Origin: Methanoculleus sp. | Lineage (GTDB): Archaea > Halobacteriota > Methanomicrobia > Methanomicrobiales > Methanoculleaceae | Length of the DNA stretch: 64,000 nucleotides | Direction of reading: 5' to 3' | Assembly (NCBI RefSeq): GCF_030019085.1 | Contig: NZ_JASEFJ010000001.1 | Location: forward strand, 62,001 to 126,000 | Shown: piece by piece, positions 2,248 through 11,623 of the stretch | Position numbering within the stretch: the stretch's first letter is position 1 | How the letters are laid out: each line of letters begins with the position of its first letter | Translations under genes and position numbers: made by a program | Notes under the pieces: model-generated | Told to the model about the DNA's origin: nothing | Seen by the model: only the letters and a program-made list of their open reading frames with translations | Database searches by the model: none

Positions 2248-2556
2248 ATGCAGAAGGCCAGAATACGTCTTTCAGGAACCGACTTTGAGAAGATCGAGAT
2301 GGTCTGTGATAGGATCAAAGAGATTGCAGAGCGTACCGGCGTCAATCTGGCAGGTCCAATCCCATTGCCCACAAAGAAACTTGTGGTACCCACCAGGAAG
2401 AGTCCTGATGGTGAGGGTACTGAAACCTGGGACCGCTGGCAGATGCGGGTGCATAAGAGACTCATAGACATCGATGCCGACGAGCGTGCGCTGCGTCAGT
2501 TGATGCGCATACAGGTTCCAAAAGATATCGGTATTGAGATCGTTCTGGAGAGTTGA
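2248..2556 (+). CDS. rpsJ: 30S ribosomal protein S10 (uS10)
   Basis: 102-residue S10 of the 30S head, recognisable from [16 protein letters not shown] and the [19 protein letters not shown] loop. It follows tuf by 30 bases, the conserved archaeal pairing, and is almost certainly cotranscribed with it. The end overlaps the region used for initiating the next gene. Confidence 0.96.
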
Positions 2557-2567
2557 GGGGGCGCGGT

Positions 2568-4253
2568 GTGAAAGCCGCTGCGTTCACGGCGAAGGTCCGT
2601 GAACAACTCTCATTCGAGGTGGTCTTCCTCCTCATATTTCTGGCCACAGTTGCCCTTCGTTTTTACTCGCTTGATTTAAAGCTTTTTCACCACGACGAGG
2701 CTGTCCACGCGTGGTTTGCCTACAAACTCCTGACAGACGGGACGTATCTATACGATCCCATGTATCATGGGCCGTTCCTCTACTACGCGACGGCCGGGGT
2801 CTTCTCAATCCTCGGTGACTCCGATCTCACAGGAAGGCTCCTACCTGCGCTTTTTGGGTGCCTGGTTGTCCTCCTGGTTTACCCCATATACTGGCTCGGC
2901 TACCTGGACAAGAAACAGACCCTGGTAGCAGCGCTTTTTCTCGCGTTATCGCCGAACATGGTCTACTTCTCGCGGTTCCTGCGAAACGATATCTTTATAG
3001 TCTTCTTTACGATGCTGCTCCTTGTCGCTCTACTCTACTACTTTGAGCGGGGGCAGACCAGGTATGCCCTGCTCGCCGGAACAGCGATCGGTCTTGGGAT
3101 GTCTGCCAAGGAGAACATGCCCATCGTTATCCTGATCTTCGGGGTATATCTCATCTACCTTATCTGGACCGGGAAGGTCCGGTTCCCGGCCCACTGGATC
3201 AGGGACTTTGTGCTCGGGGTTTTCGTCGCGGTCGCGATTGCGACGGTTTTCTACTCCTCGTTTGGCGCTCATCCTGAGATGGCACTGGACTGGTGGCTTC
3301 GGGCCATCGAGCACTGGACGGCGATGCACGAGATGCAGCGTCTTGGCGGCCCACCATACTTCTATCTCCTCCTCTTTATCCTCTACGAGGTACCGATCCT
3401 GATCCTTGCCATCGTGGGGGTTCTGCAGTTTGTCGATGTTGCGGGCATGATCTCCAGGTGGAGAGAGCGGAGAGGGTGGAGAGGTATGGAGAGACCAGGT
3501 GAGACGGGGATAACCGATCCTGACGAAGAAGAGATCCCCGAATCTATGCCCCCGCCACCGGAAGTGGCGCCTCCGGGGTTGAGGGGACGGTTTCGCGAGA
3601 TAATCTCCGGGGTCGGGGAGATCCGGCCGATAGATCGGCAGAAGGAGTTTGCAAGGTTTGCCATATTCTGGATGCTTCTATCGCTTGCAGCATACGCCTA
3701 TATTGGGGAGAAGGTACCCTGGCTGATCCTCCACCAGCTTCTGCCCATGATCTTCGTTGCGGTCTATCAGATGACAACTAAGAAGGCGATAATTGCTGTC
3801 GTAGCGAGCATCTTGCTGGTCGCGATGACTTTTCACGTGGCGTTCACACCGGCGGACATAAACGAACCCATAGTCCAGGTCCAGAACTCAGAGGACCTCC
3901 GGTGGCTCTTTGCAAAGATCGATGCCGCTGACCGTGTGGCGGTCGCGACCGACTCATACTGGCCGCTGCCCTGGTACTACCGGGGCGATCGGAGCTCAAA
4001 ACTTGCTTACTACAGCCAGAAGGTTAGCGAGGAGACGATATACAACGGCGACTTTGACCTTGTTATCACCCACGACGCTGATACCTATCCGGCGCTCGAG
4101 GGTTACGTGAAAGAAACATGCCGGTTGAACTACTGGTTCTCGTACGATGAGAATAAAGACAGGTTGCTTGCCTACTACTTCTTCAGGGACGGAAATGTTG
4201 GAAGCAGAATACTGGAGGTCTTCTCGAAGGTTCCAGCAGGGACAACCACCTGA
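2568..4253 (+). CDS. Agl23-like membrane protein (flippase-activity-associated family, TIGR03663 type)
   Basis: About 560-residue polytopic membrane protein. It opens with a transmembrane helix and the motif FHHDEAVHAWFAY, the acidic-loop signature of PMT-like (GT-C fold) glycosyltransferase relatives. At least eight further hydrophobic segments follow, a proline- and charge-rich cytoplasmic loop lies near residues 300-350, and a soluble C-terminal domain ends the protein. The family is genetically linked to archaeal glycan export. The ORF track starts at a TTG (2553) overlapping the rpsJ stop; I prefer the GTG at 2568, which has the Shine-Dalgarno TTGAGGGGG just upstream. It may work with the glycan operon at 6.7-11.6 kb. 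Substrate unknown. Confidence 0.8.
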   Translation: MKAAAFTAKVREQLSFEVVFLLIFLATVALRFYSLDLKLFHHDEAVHAWFAYKLLTDGTYLYDPMYHGPFLYYATAGVFSILGDSDLTGRLLPALFGCLVVLLVYPIYWLGYLDKKQTLVAALFLALSPNMVYFSRFLRNDIFIVFFTMLLLVALLYYFERGQTRYALLAGTAIGLGMSAKENMPIVILIFGVYLIYLIWTGKVRFPAHWIRDFVLGVFVAVAIATVFYSSFGAHPEMALDWWLRAIEHWTAMHEMQRLGGPPYFYLLLFILYEVPILILAIVGVLQFVDVAGMISRWRERRGWRGMERPGETGITDPDEEEIPESMPPPPEVAPPGLRGRFREIISGVGEIRPIDRQKEFARFAIFWMLLSLAAYAYIGEKVPWLILHQLLPMIFVAVYQMTTKKAIIAVVASILLVAMTFHVAFTPADINEPIVQVQNSEDLRWLFAKIDAADRVAVATDSYWPLPWYYRGDRSSKLAYYSQKVSEETIYNGDFDLVITHDADTYPALEGYVKETCRLNYWFSYDENKDRLLAYYFFRDGNVGSRILEVFSKVPAGTTT

Positions 4254-4317: not shown

Positions 4318-5409
4318 TTATCCAAGTTCGTCCCAGCGCCTTCTCTTCCGGAGTAGCACCACACCAACTACGACAAGAACTACAACAACAACACCGATGC
4401 CGATGTAGAGGAGGAAGTCTCCACTGAGACTGAACCCCTCACCGATCTTCTGCCGTAGCGCGGTTGCATCTGCCAGTGCCTCATTTGCTTTTTTCAGGCC
4501 GTCAGTTGCCTTTGAGCGCGCCATTTGGTAGTTCCCGGCATTCAGGTAGTCCTGGGCCTGGGTATAGAACTGGACAGCGCTCTCACGCTTGGTTATGATG
4601 GCAACCACCTGCGGGTCGCTGCCCATGGATCGGTTCTCGACAAAGTAGTTTATCATCCCATCAAGCGATTCGATTGCCGCACCGGTATCGGCGACCGACT
4701 TCTCCGCCCATGCTTTGTCCAGGAGTTCACTTGCCTCGTCGATATTCGACTTCGCCGTGTTGATGTAATTCATGGCCTGTGCCGGCCCTGCCGAGGCGGC
4801 GCTGGTGAGCGCACTGCTGGCGGCACTGTACTTTGCCTGAACTGCAGATATGTCCACACCCTCTGCAGCCTTCGCATCCATATCGGCCTTCAGGTCTTTG
4901 AGGCGCTGCTGCTGTAAAGCAAGCGCACCCTCGATATCGGCTGCACTCACGACCTCGCGTGTCACTGTGTGGGTGTCTCTCACCTCGGTGCCACGCAGGT
5001 GCTCGATCTTGATTACCAGAACCTGCCCGGTTGTGCTCGAGGGGACGGTGCCGCGCAACTGGATATCTAGTTCGGTATTGCCTTCACCGTATGAGATCTC
5101 AAACTCCGTCAGTACGGGGTAGTAGCCGGTTTTTTTGGTGGTGTAAACGGCAATCCCATCGCGATATACGGCGATGTCCCAGCTTGGATTCTGCAGTCCG
5201 GTGCTCAACTCGAATGTCTCATCGCTCAGGTCCGTGGTGACCATATCATAGGTAAGCACGTAGCGTGCGGTCACCTGCTGTCCTGGCTCGAGTGGCCCGG
5301 TTGCAGGGTTGATTGTCTCAGTTTTGATGGTAAACGCCGATGCCGCCTGCACGACAAAGAGTAGTGCCAGCAGCAGGATAAACCACCTGACGATCTTTGC
5401 GATCTTCAT
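4318..5409 (-). CDS. Secreted, C-terminally membrane-anchored coiled-coil protein, in operon with CetZ-like gene
   Basis: 363 residues with clear topology. An N-terminal signal peptide (hydrophobic core, ending near QAASA) is followed by a beta-rich extracellular domain (about 25-165). A helical, Ala/Leu/Lys-rich region of likely coiled coil spans about 170-320. A single C-terminal transmembrane helix leads to a short basic tail (RKRRRW). I do not recognise the family. It starts 14 bases after the CetZ-like gene, so the two are very probably cotranscribed. The orientation places the coiled coil outside the membrane and only the basic tail in the cytoplasm. Possible role: envelope partner of the cytoskeletal protein (inference). 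Confidence 0.7.
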   Translation of the reverse strand: MKIAKIVRWFILLLALLFVVQAASAFTIKTETINPATGPLEPGQQVTARYVLTYDMVTTDLSDETFELSTGLQNPSWDIAVYRDGIAVYTTKKTGYYPVLTEFEISYGEGNTELDIQLRGTVPSSTTGQVLVIKIEHLRGTEVRDTHTVTREVVSAADIEGALALQQQRLKDLKADMDAKAAEGVDISAVQAKYSAASSALTSAASAGPAQAMNYINTAKSNIDEASELLDKAWAEKSVADTGAAIESLDGMINYFVENRSMGSDPQVVAIITKRESAVQFYTQAQDYLNAGNYQMARSKATDGLKKANEALADATALRQKIGEGFSLSGDFLLYIGIGVVVVVLVVVGVVLLRKRRRWDELG

Positions 5410-5423
5410 AACACCCCTTCTCC

Positions 5424-6596
5424 TTACTCAAACAATGGCTCAATGCCGTCATCAAACATGGTCGTACGCTTCTCCTTTGATTTCAGGACTTCTTCCTTTG
5501 TGGATTTTGCAGTCTCAAGCAGTTCTGTGATCCGTGGAGCATTCCCGATCGTTGCGAGGACAACCACCGCAGCGATGTAGTCGCTCTGCACCGGGTAATC
5601 CCCACCACGCACCTCGACGCCGGCGATGTTCTCCTCGACCCAGCTCTTTGACTTCTCCACACCCTTGCGGTCCATCTCCTCTGGTGGGCCGGCGAGAAGG
5701 ACAAGAGCCCGCTCGGCCGTAGAGTAGTCGCAGGGAAGGGTGAGACGCCCGAGCATGGCACGTCTGACAAGAGCTATGATCTTTGCTGACTTGTCCTCAC
5801 CCGTCAACACCTGCTCGCTCTTCTCCTTCTTGTTGCGCGTCAGACCGGCGAAGAGACCCTTGCTCTGCTGCTTGGCGCGCGGATTGACCTTTTCGCTGAT
5901 GGCGTAACCGACAGAGCTGATACCCCCGCCCCGGAGGGTATTGATGATCTCGCTTGAGTCCACGACCATCTCCCCGACGCCCGCTTTGCCGACCTCACCT
6001 GCCCGGAAGAGCACGCCAAACCGCCGGACGATCTCGTCATTCAGCCTGGAATAGGCGTCCTTGACGCTCTCACCCTCGTTTTTCCAGGCGCTGTTATCAA
6101 AGATGAATGTATTGTCCGCTTCGTTCACCAGGGTGCTCAGGGAACGGGCAGCGTTATACGAGTATAGTCGGCCTTCTTCGGGGGCGGGCAGGATGCCGAT
6201 CGCGTAGACCGGTTCCCGGTATATGCGCTTTAAGTGGCGGGCCAGGACAGGCGAACCACCGGAACCGGTTCCGCCGCCAAGACCGGCTACAATGACAAAG
6301 GCGTCTATATCGTGGGTGCCGCGTGAATCTATGGCATTTATTATTGAATCGATCTCATCGGCGGTCACCCGCGCGCCGGTCACGTTGTCGGTACCTACAC
6401 CGTGACCTTTCACAACCGTTTGACCGATAAGCAGCCGGTCTTTGAGCTCGATATTCTTGAGCCCCATCAGGTCGGTCCGCGCTGTGTTTACCGCGATGCC
6501 CCTGAAACTCTGGGTCTGAGATCGTTTGTCCTGTTCTATGAACATATCGACGATCTTGCCCCCGGCCTGGCCGAATCCTATGAAGAAGACCCTCAT
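5424..6596 (-). CDS. CetZ-like tubulin/FtsZ superfamily GTPase
   Basis: 390 residues. The N-terminal GFGQAGGKIVD and the tubulin signature loop GLGGGTGSGG (about 107-116) show a nucleotide-binding tubulin/FtsZ fold. The FDNSAWKNEG stretch and the weak similarity to FtsZ beyond the signature fit the archaeal CetZ group, which controls cell shape in haloarchaea; that function is family knowledge and not shown here. It is first in a two-gene operon with the anchored coiled-coil protein downstream. A cell-division FtsZ would be expected elsewhere in the genome. Confidence 0.82.
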   Translation of the reverse strand: MRVFFIGFGQAGGKIVDMFIEQDKRSQTQSFRGIAVNTARTDLMGLKNIELKDRLLIGQTVVKGHGVGTDNVTGARVTADEIDSIINAIDSRGTHDIDAFVIVAGLGGGTGSGGSPVLARHLKRIYREPVYAIGILPAPEEGRLYSYNAARSLSTLVNEADNTFIFDNSAWKNEGESVKDAYSRLNDEIVRRFGVLFRAGEVGKAGVGEMVVDSSEIINTLRGGGISSVGYAISEKVNPRAKQQSKGLFAGLTRNKKEKSEQVLTGEDKSAKIIALVRRAMLGRLTLPCDYSTAERALVLLAGPPEEMDRKGVEKSKSWVEENIAGVEVRGGDYPVQSDYIAAVVVLATIGNAPRITELLETAKSTKEEVLKSKEKRTTMFDDGIEPLFE

Positions 6597-6721
6597 TCTA
6601 CTTTCACACCCTCATATTGCCTGATTAAATATATCCATGCTTATGTATAAAGACCATGCATACAGAGTTAGAAGTAATTATTAAAAACAACACTTATATC
6701 TTTCACGTACAGGGGTGATCA
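6597..6721. promoter_or_regulatory. Divergent promoter region between cetZ-like gene and glycan operon
   Basis: 125 AT-rich bases between divergent genes. For the plus strand, CTTATATC at 6693-6700 lies about 26 bases before the ATG at 6722, so the transcript may be nearly leaderless, although AGGGGTGAT just before the ATG could serve as a Shine-Dalgarno. For the minus strand, the AT-rich block around 6625-6650 (TTTATACATA and GATATATTTAA on that strand) offers TATA candidates. Confidence 0.5.
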
Positions 6722-7954
6722 ATGAAGATCTGCGTTGTAGGGGGAGGTTTATCCGGTCTGGTCTCGACACTTGAACTCGCGGGGGAGCATGAGGTAGATC
6801 TCTTCGAGAGAAGGCCTGTTCCGGGAGGATGCCTTGGATCCTACCGGATTGGCAACTACTGGATCGAGGAGTATTACCATCATTGTTTTGCCGGGGATTC
6901 TGCGCTGCTCGCCCTCTTCAAGAACCTCGGGGTTATCGACAGACTGGTATGGCTCAAAGGAACCACCGGTTACTACGTTGATGGGGTAATCCATCCCCTC
7001 ACCACCCCCACCGAGATCCTGCGCTACCCCCACCTCACGCTTATCGAGAAGGCCCGCCTCGGGCTGCTGACGCTGCGCTCTCGCCGGTTTGACGTGGCCA
7101 CGCTTGACGAGCTCACAGCCCGGGACTTTGTCCTTGAAAAACTCGGGCCCGGGGTCTATGCTTCGTTCTTTGAGCCTCTCCTGAAGAGCAAGTTCGGAGA
7201 CCGGGCGGGAGAGGTCTCCGCAGCCTGGCTGATCTCCCGCATTGCCATCAGGTCTGACCGTGGTCCTGGAGGGGAGCGGCTTGGCTACCTGAAGGGAGGG
7301 TTCCACCACTTTATCACGCGACTTGAGGAGGAGGCGGAGCGACGGGGTGCATCAATAGTGCCCGGGACGCCTGTTGAGGAGATCCGGCGGGATGGCGAAG
7401 CATGGCTTGTAAACGGTGAAGCCTACGACGCTGTCATATCCACCCTCCCTCCCCAGGTGACCGCAACACTTGCCGGTCTGGATATATCCCCCGTTCCATA
7501 CCAGGGCGCCGCCTGCATGACCTTGGCGCTCGATCGTGACGTGACCGATGGGATATACTGGCTGAACATGAAGGATAAGGCCCCCTACGGTGCGGTTGTC
7601 TCGCACACCAACTTTGCCCCCTTTGAGTGGTATGGCGAGCAGATCGTTTACCTTGCATCTTACTTCGCAGATCGACTCCCGGAGGGGTTTGAGAAGAAGA
7701 TGCTCGCCGATTTCTGCAGGCGTTTCTCCGTCGAAGAAGGTGAGGTACACTGGCACCATCTGGCCGTCGACCCCTATGCCGGCCCGGTTTACACGACGGG
7801 GCTCCGGAAGCGACTGCCGCACTACGAAGAGCACGGTCTCTTTATGGCCGGGATGTTCAGCCCGCCGAACTACCCCGAGCGGAGCATGAATGGTTCGGTC
7901 ATCGCCGGGCAGGAGGTGGCAAAAAAGGTTCTTGAGAGGTTTGCGTATGGTTGA
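6722..7954 (+). CDS. FAD-dependent oxidoreductase (protoporphyrinogen oxidase/amine oxidase-like)
   Basis: 410 residues. The N-terminal dinucleotide-binding motif VVGGGLSGL is followed by FERRPVPGG, both typical of FAD-binding amine-oxidase-like flavoproteins, and the C-terminal FAD segment ends with GSVIAGQEVA. Related proteins act on polyprenoid or sugar-nucleotide substrates, but the substrate cannot be read from sequence. It is the first gene of a four-gene operon with overlapping ends, together with a glycosyltransferase, a flippase-like protein and a large DUF2298 membrane protein, which points to lipid-linked glycan or isoprenoid chemistry. The next gene starts 8 bases inside its end. 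Confidence 0.75.
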   Translation: MKICVVGGGLSGLVSTLELAGEHEVDLFERRPVPGGCLGSYRIGNYWIEEYYHHCFAGDSALLALFKNLGVIDRLVWLKGTTGYYVDGVIHPLTTPTEILRYPHLTLIEKARLGLLTLRSRRFDVATLDELTARDFVLEKLGPGVYASFFEPLLKSKFGDRAGEVSAAWLISRIAIRSDRGPGGERLGYLKGGFHHFITRLEEEAERRGASIVPGTPVEEIRRDGEAWLVNGEAYDAVISTLPPQVTATLAGLDISPVPYQGAACMTLALDRDVTDGIYWLNMKDKAPYGAVVSHTNFAPFEWYGEQIVYLASYFADRLPEGFEKKMLADFCRRFSVEEGEVHWHHLAVDPYAGPVYTTGLRKRLPHYEEHGLFMAGMFSPPNYPERSMNGSVIAGQEVAKKVLERFAYG

Positions 7955-8666
7955 GATCGAGGTGAGCGCCGTTCTGCCGGTCTACAACGATCTTGCGGCG
8001 CTCAGGACCGCCATACCGCGGTCGCTTGAGACGCTCGAAGAGATTGCACCCGGCAGGTTCGAACTGATAGTTGCCGAAGACGGGAGCACCGATGGGAGCG
8101 CCGAATTTGTCAGGGAGTATGAAACCCGGGACCCGCGGGTACGGCTGCTCCATGCAGATGATAGACTCGGACGGGGCCGCGCTCTCAACCGGGCGTTTGC
8201 CGAGGCGAAGGGGTCGATCGTCTGTTACTACGACGTAGATCTCGCAACCGATATGCAGCACCTTGACGAACTGATAGGTTCTATCCGGGAGGGCTACGAT
8301 ATTGCAACAGGCTCCCGTCTCCTCCCCGATAGCACCATCACCCGGAGCGGGGGTCGTGAGATCGCGAGCAGGGGTTACAACATGCTGGTACGCCTCCTCC
8401 TCCGGAGCAGGTTCCATGATCATCAGTGCGGGTTCAAAGCGTTCCGGCGTGACCGTCTGCTCTCTCTGCTCCCTTCCGTCACGGCGGACCACTGGTTCTG
8501 GGACACAGAGGTGCTGGTGCGTGCGCAGAGAAATGGTTACCGGATAAGGGAATTCCCTGTGCGCTGGCAGCAGGGCGAGGGGACAACCGTGCGTGGAAAA
8601 GATGTTGTCGAGATGGGATCGGCAATTGTGCATCTCTGGTGGCGACTTCATGTGGAAAAAAGTTAG
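7947..8666 (+). CDS. Family 2 glycosyltransferase (polyprenyl-phosphate glycosyltransferase-like)
   Basis: 239 residues from the ATG at 7947, which overlaps the previous stop; the earlier start in the ORF track would put 19 residues inside the upstream gene. The GT-A fold is clear: SAVLPVYNDL, the VAEDGSTDGS strand, RGRALNRAF, and the DVDLATD metal-binding acidic motif. The order and length match dolichol-phosphate mannose synthase-like enzymes without membrane segments. It probably transfers a hexose from a nucleotide sugar to a polyprenyl phosphate in the cytoplasm, with the neighbouring membrane proteins using the product. Confidence 0.85.
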   Translation: MVEIEVSAVLPVYNDLAALRTAIPRSLETLEEIAPGRFELIVAEDGSTDGSAEFVREYETRDPRVRLLHADDRLGRGRALNRAFAEAKGSIVCYYDVDLATDMQHLDELIGSIREGYDIATGSRLLPDSTITRSGGREIASRGYNMLVRLLLRSRFHDHQCGFKAFRRDRLLSLLPSVTADHWFWDTEVLVRAQRNGYRIREFPVRWQQGEGTTVRGKDVVEMGSAIVHLWWRLHVEKS

Positions 8667-9633
8667 CGCCATCATCATACCCACCCTGATCGCAGTAGGG
8701 ATCATCGGGTATATGCTATACCGCGTGTGGGACGATCTCGTCCTGACGCTCGAGCATGCGGTTCTGCCACTCCTGGTTGTGGCTGTGGGGATCTGCGGCG
8801 TTTCCTGGATACTTCGTGGTTTCCGTTACAGGTTCATCCTGCATGGACTCGGTGTCGAGAAAGGTGTCTGGTTCTCGACAGCATGTATCCTTGTCTCCCA
8901 GACAGCGAACCTCATCGTCCCGGCACGTCTCGGCGACCTTGTGCGCTTGCTAATTCTCAAACACGATGATGATGCCACCTATTCCGAGGGGTTCTCCTCC
9001 CTTGTTGTCGAACGTGTATTTGATGTCATGATGGTCGCAGTGCTCGGCGTCGTTGCGCTCCTGCTGGTTCTCACCATTCTCGATGTCCCTGATTGGTTTA
9101 TCATCGCTATTGCGCTGCCTCTCGGGGCAGGCTGCCTCTTCTTCGCCGTGATCTTCTGGTCAGGCAGGATGAAATCCTCTGAGAACCGGATCCTCATAGC
9201 CGTCCAGCAGATGCTCGACGAGGTTAGACAGGTCTCCCTTCATTCTCGTGCGCTCGCGACGCTCAGTCTCTCATCGATTTTTATATGGGTCGTCGACGTG
9301 CTGGTCTGTTACGCGGTTGTCCTTATGTTTCAGGAGTCAATGCCGTTTGCTGTGGTTATCCTTGCGATCGTGATCGGCAACCTTGTAAAAGCGGTGCCCA
9401 TCACCCCTGGCGGCGTTGGGACGTATGAGGTCGCGGTCGCACTCACCTTTGGGCTGGCCGGGATGGCGGCGGCCACGGCGACCCTGATCGCGGTCATAGA
9501 TCACCTGATGAAAAACCTGGTCACGCTCGTCGGTGGCGTCGGTTCGATATACTATTTCGGCGACTGGTCGATCGAGGTTTTGAAGAAGGCTATCAACCGG
9601 GAGATCGAGAGGGAGGATACGTTTGGCGGGTGA
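8650..9633 (+). CDS. Lysylphosphatidylglycerol synthase-TM/UPF0104-like membrane protein
   Basis: 327 residues from the ATG at 8650, which overlaps the glycosyltransferase by 17 bases. It has about eight hydrophobic helices with the family landmarks RGFRYRFIL, PARLGDLVRLL and TPGGVGTYEVAVALTF. Archaeal members lack the aminoacyl-transferase domain of MprF and are suspected lipid flippases. It lies between a glycosyltransferase and a DUF2298 protein in the same operon, so moving a polyprenyl-linked sugar across the membrane is a reasonable guess. Confidence 0.82.
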   Translation: MWKKVSAIIIPTLIAVGIIGYMLYRVWDDLVLTLEHAVLPLLVVAVGICGVSWILRGFRYRFILHGLGVEKGVWFSTACILVSQTANLIVPARLGDLVRLLILKHDDDATYSEGFSSLVVERVFDVMMVAVLGVVALLLVLTILDVPDWFIIAIALPLGAGCLFFAVIFWSGRMKSSENRILIAVQQMLDEVRQVSLHSRALATLSLSSIFIWVVDVLVCYAVVLMFQESMPFAVVILAIVIGNLVKAVPITPGGVGTYEVAVALTFGLAGMAAATATLIAVIDHLMKNLVTLVGGVGSIYYFGDWSIEVLKKAINREIEREDTFGG

Positions 9634-11623
9634 GTTTCTCGTTCCGGTTCTGATCTGGCTTGTGGTTATCAAGGCGCTCCAGTTAGCAGTCTGGCCGGTG
9701 CTCGACCGTACCCTCGACCACCTCGCGCCAGCCGCCGCCTACCCGGCATCGATCCTCCTGTTCACACTCGTCTCCTGGTATTGCGCTCTTGTTGGTCTCC
9801 CGATCCCGCTTGCTCTTCTTCCGTTTGTTGCTGCGATAATCTATGCCGGTTCAGGCCGGTTTTACACGAAGGAACGAGTGCGATCGTCGCTGAAGTGGGA
9901 TCTTGCCTTCCTGATCCCTTTCCTCTTCATGCTCGAGGTGCGCTGGATCAATCCGGCCATCTCCTCCGGGGAGAAGTTCATGGACCACGCCATCCTGGCC
10001 TCGATCATGCGCCAGCCCATCGTTCCGCCTCTCGATCCCTGGTATGCCGGGGGAACTCTTGACGTCTACTACTACATGGGTTACTGGATGAACGGGGCGC
10101 TCGGCCTCGTATCCGGTGCACCGTCGACGGTCACGTTCAACCTCGCCCTGCCGACGGTGCTAGGCCTCTCAGTCGTCTCGTTCTACGCTCTGGGGCACCT
10201 GATCCTTGACCGCCATCGGTGGCTCCCGGTGCTTGCACTCTTCATCCCGAACCCCTCTGTGATCTACCATATCCTGATCGGGAGTTCCTGGTTTGACGCC
10301 TTCTGGGGAAGCACCAGGACGATTGAGAACACCATCAACGAGTATCCAATCTTCTCCATGCTCTGGGGCGACGTTCACCCTCATGTCACGAGTTTCTTCA
10401 ACCAGGGGTTCCTGCTCTTTCTACTGGTTTTTGCCTATCTTCGGTGGGGCGATCTCTCGAAGAGGGGGAGGGCGATTCTCTGCGGGCTTACCGCCCTTTC
10501 CCTCGGGTCAATGCCCGCTTTCAACTCCTGGGACGTCCTGATCTACGCTCCGATCACGCTTCTATTCGGTCTAATGGTCTGGCGCCGCTACGGGAACTTC
10601 GGGCGCGACGAAAAGATGTCCTGGATGATGCTCGGAGTGGTGCCGCCGGTTGCTGTTCTTGCATACCTCCCCTTCTACCTCCACCTCAATACCCCCGGTA
10701 TCGGGGGAATCGGTATCGTCGCTGAACCCTCTGTGCCTTTTGAGTTCCTCCTGGTTCACGGATTCTTCCTGGCGATCCTTATCGCGTACTGTGTTCCAGA
10801 TATCAGAAAGCGCCCCTACCTGCTGCTTCTTGCGCTGGTGCCTGCGCTTGCCGGATACCCGGCTGCGGCGATCGCTTCCATACCGCTGATATACCTGATC
10901 GCTCGTCGCCGGTTCTCGGTCGTCGATACGCTCGCTATCCTGGGACTCCTGATCGTCATCGGCACGGAATTTGTCTACCTGGTGGACAACATGGGGGAGA
11001 CCTACTTCCGGATGAACACCGTCTTCAAGTTCTACCTCCCGGCGTGGTTCATGATGGCGACCGCAAGCCTTGCCATAATCGGGGGGTGGAGCCAGCGCTC
11101 CGGGATCGACCGACGCATGCCTCCCCGCGTCGGGAAAGCCCTTCCTGCCTTGGCTATCGTTCTACTCCTGATTGCGCCCTTCGCCATCGGCGTTGACTTC
11201 GGTTACGGGAGTCGCACTCTCGACGGGGCGGCATACCTTGCGGCCTCACACCCCGGCGACGCTGCGGCGATAGCCTTCCTTCGGGATCTTGCCGGCGATC
11301 AGATCCTCGTCGAGGCAGAGGGCGGCGATTACACCTACTACTCCAGGGTATCAACTTTCACCGGGCTCCCGACCATCATTGGAATGCCCTTTCACGAGTA
11401 CATGTGGCGGGGAGATTATGGCCGGATAAGCGAGCGGAGCGGTGATGTAAGGACGATCTACGAGCAGCCGGACCGTACAATCGACCTTGCGCGCGCCTAC
11501 AATGCCACCCTCCTCTACGTGGGTGAACCAGAACGTGAACGCTACAATGTTTCTATCCCCGTCGGGGCGCTTGAACTCATCTATGATGAGGAAGGAGTCC
11601 AGATATACCGGATCCCTGTTTGA
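9623..11623 (+). CDS. DUF2298 (YYY-type) large membrane protein, GT-C-like
   Basis: 666 residues starting with TTG at 9623; the upstream GGGAGGATAC is a good ribosome-binding site and the start overlaps the previous gene. More than ten hydrophobic segments are present. The triple-tyrosine motif DVYYYMGYWMNGAL near residue 150 is the family hallmark (Chlor_Arch_YYY). WGDVHPHV and a soluble C-terminal domain follow. The family is thought to be a GT-C-fold transferase acting outside the membrane, though the reaction is not established. It closes the four-gene operon and is followed by a hairpin. Confidence 0.82.
   Translation: MAGEFLVPVLIWLVVIKALQLAVWPVLDRTLDHLAPAAAYPASILLFTLVSWYCALVGLPIPLALLPFVAAIIYAGSGRFYTKERVRSSLKWDLAFLIPFLFMLEVRWINPAISSGEKFMDHAILASIMRQPIVPPLDPWYAGGTLDVYYYMGYWMNGALGLVSGAPSTVTFNLALPTVLGLSVVSFYALGHLILDRHRWLPVLALFIPNPSVIYHILIGSSWFDAFWGSTRTIENTINEYPIFSMLWGDVHPHVTSFFNQGFLLFLLVFAYLRWGDLSKRGRAILCGLTALSLGSMPAFNSWDVLIYAPITLLFGLMVWRRYGNFGRDEKMSWMMLGVVPPVAVLAYLPFYLHLNTPGIGGIGIVAEPSVPFEFLLVHGFFLAILIAYCVPDIRKRPYLLLLALVPALAGYPAAAIASIPLIYLIARRRFSVVDTLAILGLLIVIGTEFVYLVDNMGETYFRMNTVFKFYLPAWFMMATASLAIIGGWSQRSGIDRRMPPRVGKALPALAIVLLLIAPFAIGVDFGYGSRTLDGAAYLAASHPGDAAAIAFLRDLAGDQILVEAEGGDYTYYSRVSTFTGLPTIIGMPFHEYMWRGDYGRISERSGDVRTIYEQPDRTIDLARAYNATLLYVGEPERERYNVSIPVGALELIYDEEGVQIYRIPV

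Follow-up and report, generated by a model that had tools for sequence, protein, structure and literature searches.

RodZ is a single-pass membrane partner of bacterial MreB that acts in the context of cell shape, joining a cytoskeletal filament on the inside to a beta-type domain on the outside. ZipA, EzrA, SepF and FtsA attach a polymer of the tubulin superfamily, FtsZ, to the membrane through a conserved short peptide; the peptide is carried by FtsZ, and the folded binder by the tether. The tubulin homologue CetZ1 acts in the shaping of haloarchaeal cells and in the placement of their motility machinery. In Haloferax, it is required for rods and motility (PMC10869688), and it is seen at the poles and cell edges, where its mechanism is unclear (PMC11621097). 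The main text of Brown and Duggin 2023 (PMC9856176) reports that genomes of Methanomicrobiales and Archaeoglobales have a single Halobacteria-like CetZ each, that the cetZ1 region has nolA and cof genes, and that neighbourhood similarities are few for Methanomicrobiales; the survey took in three Methanomicrobiales species, cetZs outside the Halobacteria branch, and 20 cetZ1 regions. That main text names no downstream membrane partner of cetZ, although an unnamed arCOG entry for the gene described here may appear in the supplement.

We analyzed a 64,000-nucleotide stretch from Methanoculleus sp. (the window) in which a cetZ gene is followed by a gene for a single-pass membrane protein, here called B. 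The predicted arrangement of B is like that of RodZ in having one membrane pass, a filament inside and a beta-type domain outside. RodZ differs in having a folded cytoplasmic helix-turn-helix domain and an actin homologue as its partner, whereas B would present a tail of about 10 residues, with no helix-turn-helix domain, to a tubulin homologue; the terminus that lies inside is also the opposite one. In comparison with the FtsZ tethers the roles are exchanged, as here it is the membrane protein that carries a short conserved peptide. Searches of Pfam and NCBIfam gave no match of B to any family, RodZ included, and no ZipA, EzrA, SepF or FtsA profile matched B or its distant homologues. By analogy, B may work as RodZ or the FtsZ tethers do, in joining a filament to the membrane.

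A cetZ gene and its downstream neighbor

Both open reading frames lie on the reverse strand, 14 bases apart, as the preliminary description had it. Its identification of the first product as a CetZ-like tubulin was borne out by matches above cut-off to CetZ_C (PF21011, E 3.4e-73) and to the tubulin GTPase domain (PF00091, 9.9e-32), and the reading frame contains the glycine-rich loop GGGTGSG. The NCBIfam FtsZ model fell far short on this protein (81 bits against a 295-bit cut-off), and a tree of close relatives grouped it with CetZ and not with FtsZ. Its best solved structure in a PDB sequence comparison was 4b46 (3e-123), given as H. volcanii CetZ1 in the main text of PMC9856176; the score was 415 bits, versus 265 bits for 4b45. 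Bit scores and tree both place it nearest to CetZ1, and not to CetZ2 or the deep CetZs. The protein can thus be classed as a CetZ by sequence, and its family membership predicts GTP-dependent polymerization. The source genome has four tubulin-superfamily genes; its second CetZ-type protein (L004, G000:C7:25771-26253) has 635 aa and a long extension.

Table 1. Features of the cetZ-B locus, in window coordinates
Feature	Position	Strand	Evidence
Gene B (363 aa), single-pass membrane protein linked to CetZ, family unclassified	4318..5409	-	ORF, profiles, AlphaFold2, homologues
WDELG plus stop, near-invariant, proposed docking motif	4318..4335	-	Pattern scan; column identity 0.99
Cytoplasmic tail of B, RKRRRWDELG (10 residues), predicted	4321..4350	-	Basic side of TM helix; alignment
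Transmembrane helix of B, about residues 332-353	4351..4416	-	Hydrophobicity; AlphaFold2 helix
Extracellular five-helix bundle of B, residues 156-324	4438..4944	-	AlphaFold2, pLDDT mostly > 90
Extracellular beta-sandwich of B, residues 26-153	4951..5334	-	AlphaFold2; Foldseek Ig-like sandwiches
Signal peptide of B, residues 1-25 (...QAASA|FT)	5335..5409	-	Sequence; helix 3-19 in AlphaFold2 model
Gap between cetZ and gene B, 14 bases, Shine-Dalgarno-like GGAG / AAGGGG ahead of gene B	5410..5423	-	Sequence
cetZ, 390 aa, Halobacteria-like, CetZ1-type	5424..6596	-	PF21011, PF00091, PDB match 4b46, tree
Intergenic region, AT-rich, TATA-like; presumed cetZ-B operon promoter	6597..6721	-	Sequence

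The intergenic region upstream of cetZ is shared with a divergent gene that begins at 6722. Among relatives of the same order, the gap between cetZ and B is mostly 4-14 bases, with some short overlaps under alternative starts; this spacing and its conservation suggest that the two genes are co-transcribed.

Gene B has no Pfam, NCBIfam or PDB sequence-family match, and none of its distant homologues rises above any Pfam or NCBIfam cut-off. An AlphaFold2 model, built from 22 sequences (mean pLDDT 86.5), contains the domains listed in Table 1; a linker modeled with low confidence (325-333) follows the bundle, and the membrane segment lies in a C-terminal helix from 332. The preliminary layout of signal peptide, beta domain, one transmembrane helix and basic tail survives in this model, but its coiled coil gives way to the five-helix bundle. 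The model of the Haloferax protein (264 aa, pLDDT 81.6) keeps the beta-sandwich, but its bundle is shorter and has three helices. Foldseek returned generic Ig-like beta-sandwiches only. Its top match, pT26-6p (PDB 2wb7; E 1.9e-6 over 313 aligned columns), had a TM-score of only 0.16, so the overall fold is not the same. Because a signal peptide stands in front and basic residues follow the transmembrane helix, we place the tail RKRRRWDELG in the cytoplasm. The N-terminal beta domain recurs in other, unlinked Methanomicrobiales proteins, with up to seven matches per genome.

Conservation of the pair within and beyond Methanomicrobiales

The preliminary description had proposed checking whether the pair is conserved in Methanomicrobiales, and there it is near-universal. 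A CetZ_C match was found in all 132 good genomes of the order and B in 131 of them (37/38 genera). Wherever coordinates for both were listed (113 genomes), the CetZ domain was followed by B on the same strand, at a distance of no more than 250 bases. The wider neighborhood, comprising an FAD oxidoreductase, a family 2 glycosyltransferase, an LPG_synthase_TM protein and a mannosyltransferase, is syntenic inside the order as well, and adjacency within Methanomicrobiales alone is therefore weak evidence. In the window, these order-wide envelope-type genes (PMT mannosyltransferase, FAD oxidoreductase, GT2 glycosyltransferase, LPG_synthase_TM) occupy 2553-4253 and 6722-11623 around the pair; a DUF2298 protein lies farther out.

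Such synteny would be expected if the pair were kept by genomic inertia or translational coupling and the tail of B served as a signal for topology or processing that has nothing to do with CetZ. Coupling could also draw on the haloarchaeal loci, where B overlaps cetZ1 by 23-32 bases under the chosen starts. Between lineages, however, all the other genes reshuffle, and whole-region synteny, which holds inside Methanomicrobiales, fails as the cause of the pairing.

A profile search of the phylum recovered full-length B homologues ending in WDELR/K in family f9, directly 3' of CetZ in several genera; shared tails and sequence suggest that this family is Archaeoglobaceae. The same search found CetZ-B pairs in families f26, f29 and f31, and pairs also occur in f10, f11, f16, f19 and f24. 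When named genomes were scanned with a DNA pattern for a CetZ1-type motif, the matches listed included CetZ1-type loci with B in Archaeoglobaceae, Methanomicrobiales, Halobacteria and Hydrothermarchaeota, and every complete named B-bearing locus among them had CetZ followed immediately by B on the same strand. Haloarchaeal B was present in 77 of 123 good genomes (31/56 genera), and it was directly 3' of CetZ, same strand, in 30/30 loci retrieved. When loci of four lineages were compared, all 51 had both CetZ and B, and the next most widely shared gene occurred at three. Chance adjacency is ruled out by these counts (113/113 genomes and 51/51 loci). The earlier proposal of a dedicated envelope partner is strongly supported, since the pair is conserved and the spread of B is related to that of CetZ. 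The pair is not peculiar to this group but extends to Halobacteria, Archaeoglobales, Hydrothermarchaeota and further families.

Two unusual arrangements were seen. Hydrothermarchaeota (L280, L320) have a CetZ-CetZ-B-CetZ cluster, with B ending KQRKEELG or KQRTGELG. In one metagenome-assembled genome, CetZ and B share a single reading frame of 603 aa (L316:4761-6569). We set this aside as Rosetta-stone evidence, as the CetZ tail and the signal start of B are lost in frame; it may reflect either a deletion in frame or an error of assembly.

The haloarchaeal CetZ that is paired with B is CetZ1. It scored 723 bits to 4b46 versus 312 to 4b45 (CetZ2), and the paired CetZ of Haloferax denitrificans agrees with the 4b46 sequence at 391 of 395 positions (99%); B adjoins it downstream and ends in YDKLG. 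The locus tag HVO_2203, which we presume to be that of an H. volcanii counterpart, was not mentioned in the literature searched. In the CetZ tree, paired proteins were confined to the CetZ1 clade, the Halobacteria-like Archaeoglobales/Methanomicrobiales clade and Hydrothermarchaeota; CetZ2 and other paralogues were unpaired, and CetZ2 was never found with B. The pairing label required 10 changes on this tree versus 40.7 in shuffles, with long branches making parts of the tree unsure.

Among the matches listed, no neighboring B was found at any of 14 CetZ loci in Natrialbaceae, nor in Halorubrum, which has kept CetZ1. A genome-wide search of five genomes without a neighboring B (G232, G239, G245, G256, G261) found none elsewhere. 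B is thus not obligatory for CetZ1. The unpaired CetZ1s of Natrialbaceae and Halorubrum are nested among paired ones in the tree and are best read as losses of B.

The C-terminal motif and the presence of CetZ

The main feature of B, absent from the preliminary description, is its invariant C-terminal WDELG. In an alignment of 32 diverse Methanomicrobiales B proteins, the only invariant columns were one proline and W-D-E-L; the final glycine was present in 31. Mean column identity was 0.99 for WDELG, versus 0.41-0.54 for each other region of B. At the DNA level, WDELG followed by a stop codon matched once in the window, at B (0 expected), and 54 of 61 related genomes gave a single match apiece, in every case at gene B and with many synonymous codon differences among the matches; a reversed control pattern occurred once in all 61 genomes. 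A general C-terminal sorting tag common to many proteins is ruled out by this single occurrence per genome.

Across most lineages the motif takes the form [W/Y/F]-D-[E/K]-L-x-COOH. We compared 182 B tails of lineages that have CetZ: 155 match [WYFH]D[EKR]Lx, and another 25 retain a leucine at the last or second-last place. The remaining two are second paralogues ending in DKW. In some haloarchaeal tails the aromatic residue or the aspartate is missing (NRLR, TKLQ, EYSKL), and the tail of f10 ends in RKRGVY.

Several lineages show further variation at these termini. In Archaeoglobaceae-like loci (L154, L155, L157, L160, L165), B stands in tandem with a second B-like protein that ends in basic residues and DKW (or DVW), a C-terminal motif distinct from that of B. 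Some f5 genera (g35 and g24; L084, L091, L092, L398) have a longer Gly/Lys-rich cytoplasmic segment ahead of a YDELF end, which looks as if a docking peptide were set on a flexible arm; the CetZ of these genera is also more divergent. In genus g109 (L390, L394), the CetZ C-terminus DELEPLF is replaced by YGDDEE or YGDNEQ and the B tail by PSRLK/R, possibly a joint change of the two ends. The C-terminus of CetZ in the window and its relatives (FDDGIEPLF, FDEDIEPLF) is itself like the W/F-D-E-L tail and could be a mimic of it.

Genomes that have no detectable CetZ provide a natural contrast. No CetZ_C match was found in five genomes of the haloarchaeal genus g119, each at least 95% complete, yet three of the five retain B at the orthologous locus, in the order nolA-like, [cetZ1 missing], B, cofC-like, cofG-like. 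Their tails read SWRDR, QWSDR and SWRDR, and the motif is lost. This genus may be Halococcus, which is reported to be without CetZ in the main text of PMC9856176. In a further genome (G521, genus g149, 78% complete), no CetZ was found and the B tail is SDRFG. None of these four CetZ-less tails, which represent one or two independent loss events, matches [WYFH]D[EKR]Lx. In f9 genomes where CetZ is present but unlinked to B, the tail is still WDELR/K; the motif follows the presence of CetZ. In family f12, which is also CetZ-less, B-like proteins end in KL but have no aromatic-acidic part, so a bare leucine is not CetZ-specific. B persists in g119 where CetZ is missing, which points to some role of the outer part of B that does not depend on CetZ.

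These results bear on the inertia or coupling explanation raised above. WDELG-stop is on no other protein in the genomes searched, and the motif is lost where CetZ is missing; this explanation, already disfavored, is very improbable. They bear also on the idea that B and CetZ share one process, such as shape or the polar motility machinery, and that the tail binds a third protein, for example a MinD paralogue or a polar scaffold, instead of CetZ. This idea gains from the variation of the tail between haloarchaeal families and from the positioning of CetZ1 by MinD2/MinD4 (PMC11621097). The motif is nevertheless gone with CetZ and kept when the genes are unlinked, CetZ being the only factor compared, and we regard a third-protein target as quite unlikely.

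A candidate link between CetZ and the envelope

We favor as probable a role of B as a transmembrane tether or receptor, with its tail docking on CetZ1-type filaments; the motif and the co-occurrence of the genes point to binding of CetZ by B and to a membrane location for the polymer. B would be exported by means of its signal peptide and anchored by its single C-terminal helix, so that the beta-sandwich and helical bundle face outward and about 10 residues remain in the cytoplasm as a tail. The end of this tail ([W/Y/F]-D-[E/K]-L-x-COOH) would dock on CetZ filaments, or on a co-acting factor. CetZ would thereby be tethered to, or positioned by, the envelope, and its assembly placed at, or informed by, the envelope.

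The large and divergent extracellular part of B, set against so tiny a tail, could instead belong to a sensor for the state of the S-layer or glycan coat, one that signals inward through the tail to regulate CetZ assembly. The surroundings would suit a sensor: the Methanomicrobiales cluster around the pair includes glycosyltransferase, flippase-like and mannosyltransferase genes, and the main text of PMC9856176 describes sugar epimerase genes near haloarchaeal cetZ. We nonetheless consider it unlikely, as no known sensory domain was found in B with Pfam, NCBIfam or PDB, and a 10-residue tail is too small for enzymatic output.

Shape control by the pair, which the preliminary description had proposed, is plausible, given that CetZ1, the partner in haloarchaea, is known to act in rod shape and motility. 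We propose more tentatively, and with some doubt, that B is the founding member of a family of transmembrane receptors that use a C-terminal [W/Y/F]DELx-type peptide to link CetZ filaments with the S-layer or surface side, an ancient archaeal module. In Haloferax, B might then supply the missing membrane attachment of CetZ1, and the overlapping gene B might be partly involved in the phenotypes of existing cetZ1 deletions.

B offers a concrete and mutable candidate for the mechanism of CetZ1: a membrane anchor with a five-residue cytoplasmic motif. As it occurs in Haloferax, where genetics is routine, and also in methanogens and Archaeoglobales, the function of CetZ outside the haloarchaea can be asked. 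The proposal, if true, would suggest that a filament of the tubulin family was connected through the membrane to the cell surface early in archaeal evolution.
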